DNA from: Paralichthys olivaceus
Taxonomy: Eukaryota; Chordata; Actinopteri; Pleuronectiformes; Paralichthyidae
Reading direction: 5' to 3'
Length of the DNA stretch: 64,000 bases
NCBI RefSeq assembly: GCF_024713975.1
Contig: NC_091109.1
Coordinates: 20,925,760-20,989,759, forward strand
This document shows, one piece after another, positions 23,715 through 51,051 of the stretch (within the stretch, counting starts at the first letter, position 1; each line of letters opens with the position of its first letter). The translations under genes were made by a program, and so were the position numbers. The notes beneath the pieces are model-generated. The model searched no databases, had not been told where the DNA came from, and worked only from the letters and a program-made list of their open reading frames with translations.

Positions 23715-24165
23715 ACTCTTCAGCTTTTGGGAAACGTGCACATTTTGGCAGAAAGTTGGACGATGATGTTTGATACCACTCTCTCACATGTGCGCTAAAT
23801 ACGAAGCAATGGGTGGCACAGTGGTAAAGAGGTCAGCACGGTCGCCTCACAGCAAAAAAGGTCCTGTGTTTGAACTCAGTGGCCGACCAGGTCATAACTG
23901 AAGACTCTCTGTGAGCCTGAGTGGTGGTTTGTTTTTGTATATCAACCCTGTGATGGACGGGCGACCTGTCCTGGGTGTACCGCGCCTTTCCAATCTCAAG
24001 CTGGGATTAGTTCCAACGAGCCTCAAAGGATGAGCCGTACGGATAATGGACGATGGGATGAAGCTGTCAAGAGCAGCATTTTAGCTTAGCTTAGCACAAA
24101 TGCTGAAAAGAAACGGGCGGCCTGACTCTGTCCCAAAGTAAAAAAAATTAGCACCAGTTAATTGG
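23715..24165. repeat. Older dispersed repeat, split by a SINE
   Basis: The left part (23715-23807) and right part (24065-24165) form one element: a GGAAA start, a TTTGATACCACTCTC block, then TTAGCTTAGCTTAGCA and a CTGTCCCAAAG block. A second partial copy at about 39390-39515 has the same order of blocks without the insertion (GATGAGAAGACTGATAC, then GTTAGCTTAGCATAAAG). Class unknown. Confidence 0.65.
23808..24059 (+). mobile_element. tRNA-derived SINE
   Basis: A 252-bp element flanked by the direct repeat GAAGC (23803-23807 and 24060-24064), which fits a target-site duplication. An RNA polymerase III A box (TGGCACAGTGG, 23814-23824) and B box (GTTTGAACTC, 23868-23877) lie about 44 bases apart, as in a tRNA-derived head. 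The body has the block GCGACCTGTCCTGGGTGTAC, common in teleost genomes. It sits inside an older repeat and is presumably inactive. Confidence 0.8.
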
Positions 24166-24935: not shown

Positions 24936-27900
24936 TCACACCGCCACCCAGAGGATCGAGATGTTAGTGCCTCCCTCGTGTGTTATCTGGTTAACACGCC
25001 CACGGATACAGTCCAGAGTCACGTACACAGCTGTGCCGTTCTGCACCTGAAATGAGGCCCTGAGCCCGATGCTGGCCCACTCGCTGCCTTCAGGCATGTA
25101 TCCAGACACCTGCTGAGCCACAGGACCCGCCTGCCCACTCTGACCTGGGCCTGCCACCTGCTGCAACGTGAGTTTTACTATGTTACAGGAGTGGATCAGC
25201 TTCAGGTTGAGCGCGACGTTCGCTGTCCCTTTCTCGTGGAATATAAAGTTCTTCCGGCCGCTCGGCGCGCCTGAGCGGGCCAAGTGAACCTGCGGCGTGT
25301 CTGAGCTGATCTGCTGGAACAGCAGCGGTTTGTTCCTCACCGCTCCGAAGGGAAGACCGGTCCTGGACACGGTAGCGGTCAAAGCCGACGACACAGCTGA
25401 AGGAATCCAGATGAGGCTCAGCATGCTGATGCCGGTGCTGTCCCCGAAATAACGGATGTTGCACTGGGAGGGAGACGTGATCTCGAAGCTGAGTGTGTCT
25501 CCCCTGTCCACGCTCACGGCGCCAGAGAGGGTGATGGAGGTGTCCCTGTAGTTGACGCCTGTCTTGAAGGCCTGCGTCGCCTCCACACCCGTCCCGTTGC
25601 GGTTAGTGTAAGCGATCAGGGAGAAACCCTCTCGAATGCAGGTGTGGCCCATGGAGTACAGCGCCTGCTGGAGGATGAACTTCACCACGCCGCTCTCTGT
25701 GAAGCGCACGCCGCGGCTGTCGTGGGTCAGGCTGATCATGTACGGGTCAGACACTGAGGTCATACGGAACGTCGGGCGGTAGCTGGTCTGGTAGTGGACC
25801 AACAGGGACATCTGAGCTGTCATGGCAACAGCGCCGGTATCATGAGACAACCAGAGGAGACTCAAAGAGGGAGCGGTGACGTCGTACACATGAAGATCCT
25901 TGCTCTGGTTGCAGTGTTGATTCGGACTCTTCAGCAGGAGGGTGAGGGTGTGATTAGGCTCAACCTCGACTCCGCTGCTGACGCTCACCCCCTGAAAGTA
26001 CTTCCCATCGGGCTGTTCGATGCGGACGCCACTGAGATCCTGACCCTCCTCCTCCTGGCTGCCGTTGAGCCTCATCCCAACCTGGAGGAAGTTCCTGCAG
26101 CTGTGCTTTAATGCAAAGTTATGATCCAACCACACCAGGCCGTGCTGCAGGAAGGTCACCTGCCCCGCTTCGTTGGAAAGCAAATCGCTGCTCTCCTTCC
26201 CTCGGATGTTCAGCTGAAGCCCCTGGAAGATGTTGGTGCCGGTGGTCCGAGCAGACGGAACTGCAACGTTCGCCGCCCAGGACTGAGAGAGTCGGCTCTC
26301 TGAACTCTGGCTGCACACAGCGTCGCTGACGGCCGTGCACGGGACAGAGACAGGCTCTCCGTCACAGTCCGAACAGGCCTGGCACTCCTGCAGCTCCTGG
26401 TTGTAGAAGTAGTCGTGGCCGCACATGCCCAGCTCCACTTCCCTCTCAGACACCCCCAGACACCTGAAGCCTCCTGAGCCAGAGAGAAAATATGATTGTT
26501 TTGTGTGGATGAAAAATACTTAGATTCTTTTGGTTTTAAATAAACTGGTGTGAATGGATTCTAAGATAAAATCTGTCCATGATCGTAGAATAACTTGTGT
26601 TTGTCATCAGCGCCATGTTTTAAACTCACCTGGGGTGTTCAGGCACTTCACTCGCTCCCCACAAATGTTTGGTAGCTCAAGGCATTCGTCTCTGTCCTGT
26701 AATTCATACAGATTCATTTTATCTTCATGAAAACATTCTGATATTAATAAAAAATCTTTTCCAAAAACCTGCAATACCAATATCTGCTTAAGTTCTGAAG
26801 CTGTAAGTAGACATTCTGTGTTTGTGTTTGAAATTGAAGACAAGGATCAATCATTCAGTCTCTGAGAGGTCAGTACCTGGCACATGCGGTCTGCAGTGGA
26901 TGAGCACTGTGAGATGAGGAAGAAGCCAGGTGGACACATAGTGCATTTCTCACACTGAGGCGGGTCCCTCTGAAAATCACAGAACTCCTCTGGTCCGCAG
27001 GGCGAAGGGCATCCCAGCAGAGGTTGAGGGAAATTCGCCTCCCCGACCACGTCCATCACCTTCGTGTCCATGTCCACTTTGTGGACGGCGTAGGACTTCT
27101 GCAGGTGGCTGCGGGCCTGGCTCTGCAGCCCCGCCAAGTGGCTCTCAAAGTAGCTCTGCAGCTCGCCCTGCAGGCCCTGGAAGGACACCTGTTTGACGGT
27201 GTCCGAGAGGAGGCTGTACTGGGCCTTCACCACGTCCATCTGCTCGTACATGCGCCGCTGCTGCTCCAGGATTTCGCGCTGCTGGGACAGAAGGGCGTCC
27301 TGTTGGTCCACGAGCTTCTGCTGCAGGTCGCGGATGACCACCTGCTGGGCGCGCAGGGCCTCCACCAGCTTCTCCTGCCCCTTGGCCAGCTGGAGGTGCA
27401 GGATGAGGGCGTCCTCTGAGGGGACTTCATTCTCGCCTGCGATGAAAATAATGCAGAGTGAAAGACGGGAACACACTTGCTGTTAAACAGTGAACTGGAG
27501 GAAATGATTAAATGAGATTAAGTCTGTAGCAGAAGTCTGATTTCAGTGAGGTGCTGGCCCCCAGTGTGTGAACACCCAGTGACCCCGCCGACATGAAAGA
27601 ACTAGAGCTTTTCTGGACAATTGACTTTGAGACATTGTTCCAGTTGAGCTGCTCTAGATGCCCCGCAGATAACATTGACTTCTAAAGGTCGACAGAGTCC
27701 TACCTTGGTTTACAACCCCCACGGCTGATCACAGGTGGAGGAGGTTAAAGCCAATAAAGTGCAGGAGGTGAATTTAAAGGAAATTCAGTGAAAATAATAC
27801 TTTTTGGATGATTGACTCCTTTGTGTCCTCTTTGGACATTTGGAAAAAGTAAATCAGCCTGAGATCGTCTACACACAACAGATGATGCTGATGATGGAGA

Positions 27901-28584
27901 TAGCAGACCTGGCTTGATGTCACATGTGAGCTGGACACCCAGAGGCGCGCCGCCAAGTTCCGACGAAGAATATCCAAACTCCGGGAAGTCTCCCAGGAAC
28001 TGCGCGGCTCTGTCGGACAGATGCACGGGAGGACGCTGGCTGGAGACGCTCTCCTCTGAAGCGGCCAGACAGCCCTCACCCACACAGGACTTCGCCCGAG
28101 CTTTTGGCCGGATCCTCGGGGGCAGTCTGCACTCGATCCCTCTGCAGTCTCGGGTGTCGTTAGTGGGTTGAAATTGCTTGACAGGAGCGGCGCAGCCCGC
28201 GTCCGTGCACCCTGCAGGTAGAGGGAGGACCTCGGGCGCTCTCATCCGTGCGCCTCCACCTCCTCCTCCTCCGCCGCTGATGTTTCCGTGTCGCCCGCGT
28301 AGAGGCTGCGCGGCCGGGTAGGCTTGCGACGCAGCTCTCGGAGAACCCGGGTACGCGTGATGTTGGCTGGCCACTATCTGCGCCGCTCTCCCCTGCGTGG
28401 TGGGGTTGAATTGCCGCGGCTGCCTGGAGGATCTGCCCCCCGGACAGTGCTCTCCGGTGCACGGTCTCGGATCGCTCGCGTCCCCGCCGAAGCAGTGCGT
28501 CCCCCGGCAAAAATCTGCTGCAGCTTGCGCGGTGTTGTGCAGCGAAACCCAGGAGAGCAGCAGCACTGATGTTAGTAAAACCAT
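24936..28584 (-). CDS. Secreted mosaic protein: CX4C repeats, coiled coil, TNFR/EGF-like modules, triple C-terminal domain
   Basis: I do not recognise this gene. Exons in transcript order: 27909-28584, 26877-27436, 26630-26696, 24936-26473. They join in frame (phases 1, 0, 1) to 2841 nt, 946 residues. Residues 1-21 look like a signal peptide. Residues 26-172 hold five C-x4-C motifs (CRGTHC, CTGEHC, CTDAGC, CRGIEC, CVGEGC) in a Pro/Gly/Arg-rich stretch. About 235-325 is a Gln/Leu-rich coiled coil. 368-411 is a cysteine module with TNFR-like CxxCxxC spacing. 413-442 is EGF-like (DRDEC...CLNTPGGFRC) but lacks the usual fifth Cys. 452-488 is a TNFR-like six-Cys repeat. Residues about 515-946 are three similar beta-rich units. 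The layout suggests a secreted oligomer, comparable in plan to thrombospondins or EMILINs, with TNF/C1q-like ends. The donor of exon 1 is weak (GTCTGC). An acceptor ending at 28614 suggests an upstream 5'UTR exon. The gene lies between gad2 and apbb1ip, where human has none that I know of. Confidence 0.8.
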
Positions 28585-28615
28585 GTTTGCATGAGAAAAA
28601 AATCCTTCTCTACCT

Positions 28616-36197: not shown

Positions 36198-50724
<14,527 letters not shown>

Positions 50725-51051
50725 TCTGAGCAGGTCATTTGTGGAGAATAAATAAGAACTCTGTCGAACGAAGAGTAATTTAAAACTTAATCTGCATTTT
50801 CCATCCGCAGCTGTTCTAATGTCACATCTGGAGATCAATACACACATTGATCCACTTATCCAGAGCATTGTGGTGATTCATCTGTAGTCCAGCCTGGTAA
50901 CTGTTTTAAACTTGGTTAGAAATCAGTGACAGCTGTAAGAAAACATTCAATCTTGCTGCTGTCATCATAGTTTTTTTATAGAGTTGTATATATTGTCATG
51001 TTTACCTGGTAGAATACAGAGTGTTGTTATTTTTCAAATGACTGTCATCTA

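Follow-up and report, generated by a model that had tools for sequence, protein, structure and literature searches.

A 64,000-nucleotide stretch of the Paralichthys olivaceus genome (NC_091109.1, positions 20,925,760 to 20,989,759 of the forward strand; hereafter the window) carries, on its minus strand between gad2 and apbb1ip, a real and apparently uncharacterised protein-coding gene of which a second copy is retained in the same genome. The gene is old and constrained, and no artefact, because a colinear duplicate on a second contig (C16) keeps its cysteines, its introns and a low ratio of nonsynonymous to synonymous divergence (dN/dS). We give an even chance to the explanation that the encoded chain of about 945 residues is a secreted oligomer with a heptad helix, tumor necrosis factor receptor (TNFR)-type modules and three jelly rolls like those of the tumor necrosis factor (TNF) ligands, and that outside the cell it serves as a multivalent ligand or adaptor. 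A wider proposal, which we advance tentatively and hold less firmly, is that the gene represents an unrecognised secreted family whose single oligomeric chain unites TNFR repeats with three TNF-like jelly rolls in tandem, placing the ligand and receptor types of module of one signalling system on one molecule. On this view the family predates the teleost genome duplication, has kept both resulting duplicates and is apparently missing from the corresponding interval in mouse and man. The recognised modules are all of known kinds; it is their arrangement that appears to be new.

The four coding exons (Table 1; the last, 26473-24936, includes the stop codon) are separated by GT...AG introns in phases 1, 0 and 1, and join into 946 open codons. 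Eight combinations of donor and acceptor sites leave an open frame longer than 900 codons, and the one adopted here, that of a preliminary description of the locus, is favoured because the C16 duplicate supports the same junctions. Donors 1 and 2 fit 6/9 positions of the consensus and donor 3 fits 9/9. The open reading frame (ORF) of the last exon runs to 527 codons, against a longest ORF of 294 codons among 200 first-order Markov simulations of the stretch. GC content at third codon positions is 0.66, 0.83, 0.59 and 0.77 in exons 1-4, with the high values in exons 2 and 4; the introns, at a GC content of 0.44, 0.32 and 0.33, are rich in AT. The start codon has A at -3 and G at +4, and 29 bases 5′ of it lies an acceptor-like site with pyrimidines at 10 of the 11 positions preceding the CAG. 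The C16 copy likewise has an acceptor-like site just 5′ of its ATG, and these paired sites suggest that an intron in the 5′ untranslated region (UTR) probably precedes the first coding exon. The in-phase joining of the four exons over 946 codons, as first described, is thus confirmed by the open frame, the GT/AG boundaries, the Pfam TNFR_c6 matches reported below and the C16 duplicate.

We searched the genome (588 Mb in 25 contigs, the window being part of contig C17) with the DNA of the locus and with the protein of exon 4, and found only one further copy, full length and on the plus strand of C16 (C16:16959077-16962822, about 16.96 Mb; L006 5078-8823). Two extra protein matches to exon 4 (E = 2.55 and 2.57) are at chance level, and exon 1 searched against the same genome at E up to 1 matched only the two gene copies. 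The C16 gene, in a six-exon model, encodes 943 residues colinear with the window protein from the signal peptide through the last repeat, and 492/916 aligned residues are identical. Every cysteine of the window protein is retained (35/35), with two additional ones in the copy. The three introns of the window gene recur at identical residues and phases, and exon 3 is kept together with its phases; two further phase-0 introns lie within the equivalent of exon 2, which is shortened in its middle part. Over 916 codons the NG86 method gives dN 0.387 and dS 1.955, a ratio of about 0.2 (0.10-0.29 per segment) that is approximate, dS being near saturation. Identity between the copies reaches 55-65% in the C-terminal repeats R2 and R3 and 47% in R1, so the repeats are as conserved as the rest of the protein. 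Because of its alignment, introns and dN/dS, the C16 copy independently confirms the gene model, and the codon comparison indicates that the window gene is under purifying selection.

The N-terminal half of the protein combines features suggestive of export and of oligomerisation. Residues 1-21 (approximately) read by inspection as a cleavable signal peptide, and no membrane-like segment was found after residue 30, the maximum 19-residue hydropathy being 1.54 in the window protein and 1.51 in the C16 copy. The cysteine-rich N-terminal region that had been described is present, and the number of its CX4C motifs is here corrected to five (residues 26, 42, 126, 147 and 167), all ten cysteines of which are retained in the C16 copy. 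Residues 234-310 likely form an amphipathic helix of coiled-coil type, a reading that rests on the periodicity of the sequence. The hydrophobicity period of 3.5 in this segment was equalled by 17/2000 shuffles (5/2000 for the C16 copy), and a period of 3.6 over the same helix by 332/2000 in the window protein and 26/2000 in the C16 copy. The coiled-coil a/d score tells against this assignment, having been equalled by 86/500 shuffles. Of the coiled coil originally proposed, the heptad periodicity therefore stands in both copies, but the a/d score does not exceed chance.

The two TNFR-type repeats are securely identified. Pfam TNFR_c6 (PF00020) matches two stretches (E = 3.1e-13, 50.3 bits; 46.3 bits in the C16 copy; cut-off 29.4) and is the sole Pfam domain above cut-off in either copy, which bears out the earlier report of TNFR-like cysteines and of a TNFR-like repeat. 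The EGF module reported between them is not complete: the EGF-like part holds 4/6 cysteines (417, 424, 430 and 439) before the following module begins, and its Pfam EGF_CA scores of 23.2 bits in the window protein and 22 bits in the C16 copy fall below the cut-off of 27.

The remainder of the chain consists of three beta-type units, R1, R2 and R3, and the protein terminates directly after R3. Each unit has one cysteine pair (560/622 in R1, 713/772 in R2 and 864/923 in R3). Local alignment scores were equalled by shuffles in 0/500 cases for R1-R2, 2/500 for R1-R3 and 207/500 for R2-R3, and profiles built from the two gene copies gave hhalign P values of 2.1e-4, 0.0059 and 0.063, respectively. 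Because the R1-R2 and R1-R3 scores beat the shuffles, R3 is linked to the others through R1, and by these shuffle and profile tests the three units noted earlier are related repeats connected via R1. No Pfam family matches any of the three. Near the first cysteine, R1 and R3 share H-S-C and R2 has H-T-C; the second cysteine of R3 stands at an alignment position unlike that in R1 and R2.

R2 probably adopts the jelly-roll fold of the TNF superfamily, though this is not certain. Two-copy profiles of the repeats were used as queries against two sets of sequences, one of eight human TNF ligands and one of eight TNF-domain ORFs found in the same fish genome by PF00229. Against the human ligands R2 aligns over 75 columns (hhalign probability 81%, P = 1.2e-5), a score equalled by 0/60 column shuffles and 0/100 block shuffles, with reversed profiles at P = 0.096-0.16. 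Against human and fish sequences together the alignment extends to 90 columns (P = 4e-6; 1.5e-4 with six fish sequences, 0/60 shuffles). TNF and C1q, whose kinship is accepted, served as a yardstick and gave P = 9.5e-5 and 2.1e-6 by the same procedure. Comparisons of R2 with single TNF ligands ranged from P = 0.0056 to 0.63. By repeat kinship only, R1 and R3 are likely, though not proved, to be TNF-like jelly rolls as well.

Several results weigh against a TNF identity for the repeats. The likeness of R2 was first noticed by eye and then tested. When one ligand was removed per run, P ranged from 1.2e-5 to 0.0027, at nearly constant register, and the match to fish TNF alone is weak (P = 0.006 with all eight sequences; 0.021 with six, equalled by 1/60 block shuffles). 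Neither R1 nor R3 by itself matches TNF clearly (P = 0.039 and 0.31), and taken together the repeats align to TNF across only 26-32 columns. Pfam TNF (PF00229) does not match R1, R2, R3 or the C16 copy, and among the 20 places that it scored across the genome neither gene copy was included. PDB profile searches with the repeats and with exon 4 of both copies remained at chance level (best E = 0.25 and 0.058) and returned no TNF or C1q chain. AlphaFold2 applied to exon 4 as a single sequence gave a predicted local distance difference test score (pLDDT) of 33.5 and hence no structural support.

We also considered a C1q identity for the repeats and rejected it. Alignment scores to adiponectin were equalled by 543, 673 and 178 of 1000 shuffles for R1, R2 and R3, and hhalign comparisons with C1q profiles gave P = 0.3-0.6, within shuffles (R2, P = 0.5). 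The TNF/C1q-like ends of the preliminary description thus hold in part: R2 is probably TNF-like by profile comparison, and C1q finds no support in Pfam, hhalign or the adiponectin shuffles.

What kind of molecule the gene specifies can be judged by setting the oligomeric ligand or adaptor against other explanations of the same features. One is a soluble TNF-receptor-like decoy, whose TNFR repeats bind a TNF ligand and whose C-terminal repeats are an oligomerising or matrix-binding tail. Osteoprotegerin, with TNFR repeats and no membrane anchor, is a precedent, TNFR_c6 is the one Pfam domain above cut-off, no membrane-like segment was found and the helix would suit oligomerisation; we nevertheless regard a decoy as unlikely, given that there are just two TNFR repeats, split by the EGF-like part, and that a mere tail would hardly make up about half of the protein and be equally conserved. 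Similarly low in our estimation is a structural matrix protein with beta-rich repeats of a new fold, in which the TNF-like score of R2 reflects convergence on a short strand-turn-strand pattern. The missing TNF matches of R1 and R3, the weak match to fish TNF alone and the short alignment of the whole repeat set all favour such convergence. Against it, the R2-TNF match covers 75-90 columns in a nearly constant register whichever TNF sequence is omitted, and it is comparable to the yardstick kinship of TNF and C1q.

A divergent relative of EMILIN and multimerin would offer a comparable module order, with a cysteine-rich N terminus, coiled coil, EGF-like part and C1q-type C terminus, and the heptad helix is indeed present. 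TNFR repeats are not known from that family, which counts against this relationship. The C1q plus EMI domain pair is named in tables of PMC11788884. Neither EMI nor C1q of Pfam matches either whole protein, EMI has no match in the N-terminal 230 residues, and the C1q profiles and the adiponectin alignment stay within shuffles as given above, so we consider this origin quite improbable. Least credible of all is that unrelated ORFs or a pseudogene were joined by eye into an artificial gene. The weakness of two donor sites out of three would fit this view, but the full-length C16 copy, which shares the exons, cysteines and intron phases at a dN/dS of about 0.2, makes such an artefact scarcely conceivable.

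If the protein is a multivalent ligand or adaptor, the chain would be exported from the cell, and the helix together with the CX4C cysteines would link chains into an oligomer. Each chain would then display an arm of TNFR and EGF-like modules followed by three tandem TNF-like domains, and the three TNF-like repeats may pack within one chain, like the three subunits of a TNF trimer. The molecule could thereby be a multivalent ligand or adaptor outside the cell, and it may bind TNF-family partners through either kind of module. The preliminary reading as an oligomeric extracellular ligand or matrix protein remains putative.

In both gene copies two TNFR_c6 repeats exceed the curated cut-off, a feature shared with the TNF receptor superfamily. 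In contrast to those receptors, the protein has no membrane-like segment, death domain or other intracellular part; a type I transmembrane segment with a cytoplasmic part, found in the superfamily and absent from its soluble decoys, is lacking here. An EGF-like piece separates the two repeats, and a heptad helix and a CX4C region lie N-terminal to them. The TNF ligand family is approached by R2 across 75-90 columns that include the strand G-[AV]-x-x-[LV]-x-x-G-D-x-L. Unlike the ligands, the protein leaves the Pfam model unmatched, has three tandem domains with a cysteine pair in each repeat, begins with a signal peptide where the ligands have a type II anchor, and carries TNFR repeats on the same chain. 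EMILIN, multimerin and other C1q proteins resemble it in being extracellular and in combining a helix, an EGF-like part and a beta-rich C terminus, whereas the present protein has no C1q or EMI match (in Pfam, and for C1q also by hhalign) and does have TNFR repeats.

Searches for relatives returned no full-length match in PDB, Pfam or the fish's own genome beyond the C16 copy, and NCBIfam gave no match for exon 4. Peptide patterns matched in viral and genome contigs, with no bacterial, archaeal or viral relative confirmed by tblastn. Our literature searches found no gene named in the interval and no protein of such architecture. Quite possibly, automatic annotation of other fish genomes already lists the gene product as an uncharacterised protein.

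TNF ligands and their receptors are generally known as separate proteins, and a secreted chain that joins TNFR repeats to TNF-like domains would, if confirmed, be a new design of extracellular regulator that could mask itself or act in the extracellular space as a cross-linker of TNF-family ligands and receptors. The set of secreted fish proteins would gain an uncharacterised member. Two copies are kept with every cysteine intact, and should orthologues exist in zebrafish or medaka, their function would be open to a direct knockout test. If the gene is absent from mammals, an otherwise stable gene block would have seen a lineage-specific loss or, alternatively, an invention specific to fish.

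The two copies are most simply read as products of the teleost genome duplication, in which the block was duplicated and gad2, apbb1ip and pdss1 were then lost on the C16 side. This reading is drawn because the C16 copy adjoins the closest copy of the abi1 SH3 exon, in matching order and orientation: the abi SH3 exon of the window has its best matches after itself on C16 (89%), C24 (88%) and C10 (80%), and on both C17 and C16 abi1 precedes the studied gene in the direction of transcription. In the 230 kb surrounding the C16 copy, searched by tblastn with 1304 window ORFs at E up to 1e-3, the matches comprised the studied gene, a stretch resembling abi1 and a few weak matches of short length, and no exon of gad2, apbb1ip or pdss1 was found. 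Farther out on C16 lie Patched-type and annexin ORFs (Pfam) and an ORF that we take to be GPR158-like, a label for which Pfam gave no confirmation. The Patched-type protein of C17 (20.46 Mb) is just 28% identical and is no help in pairing the blocks. C24 and C10 both have relatives of the apbb1ip PH exon and of the abi SH3 exon and, as candidate 2R paralogues, are probably the raph1/abi2 chromosomes; genome searches with exon 4 and exon 1 found no copy of the studied gene on either.

Table 1. Coordinates of the gene and its modules within the window
Feature	Position	Strand	Basis
Putative 5′ UTR portion of first coding exon	28585..28613	-	after acceptor-like site (TTTCTGCTTTTGCAG/G)
Coding exon 1: signal peptide and Cys/Gly/Pro-rich region with five CX4C motifs	27909..28584	-	
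Coding exon 2: predicted heptad helix (~residues 234-310) and first TNFR_c6 repeat (residues 372-411)	26877..27436	-	Pfam, hydrophobicity period
Coding exon 3: beginning of incomplete calcium-binding-EGF-like module (residues 413-434)	26630..26696	-	EGF_CA 23.2 bits
Start of exon 4: EGF-like remainder (cysteine 439) and second TNFR-type repeat (cysteines 452-488)	26313..26473	-	TNFR_c6
Repeat R1 (residues 494-648), one cysteine pair	25833..26297	-	shuffles, hhalign vs R2, R3
Repeat R2 (residues 649-795), one cysteine pair	25392..25832	-	hhalign, probable TNF likeness
Repeat R3 (residues 796-946), one cysteine pair	24939..25391	-	kinship to R1
Stop codon	24936..24938	-	

The placement of the gene between gad2 and apbb1ip is borne out by the best matches of its neighbours, with the gene itself on the minus strand. 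Exon peptides of gad2 lie at about 3.5-12.2 kb on the plus strand (best PDB match glutamate decarboxylase 2, E = 3e-112), and plus-strand exons at 41.1 and 46.4 kb have APBB1IP as best match. We take the plus-strand exon at 59.6 kb to be pdss1-like and the minus-strand SH3 exon at 62.1 kb to be of ABI type. In gar, gad2 adjoins myo3a, and the passages of PMC4962313 that place it there do not mention the gene under study. For the mouse chromosome 2 interval, a table passage in PMC6914690 gives Gad2, Apbb1ip, Pdss1 and Abi1 and no other gene. The earlier remark that the human 10p12 locus has no known gene here fits this mouse table, as would absence from mammals, for which no dedicated search was made.

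Rfam and ARAGORN gave no match in the window. An ORF across window positions ~23825-24035 has a further match about 12 kb downstream of the C16 copy; to judge from a motif (GGGTGGCACAGTGG ... GTCGCCTCACAGC ... GTGATGGACGGGCGACCTGTCC), this stretch is presumably part of an interspersed repeat common in teleosts. Near the apbb1ip RA exon lies a perfect (AC)53 microsatellite (41715-41820), and tandem repeats of 60 and 96 bases occupy 50139-50379 within a plus-strand ORF (49878-50726), where the proline-rich end of apbb1ip is expected.

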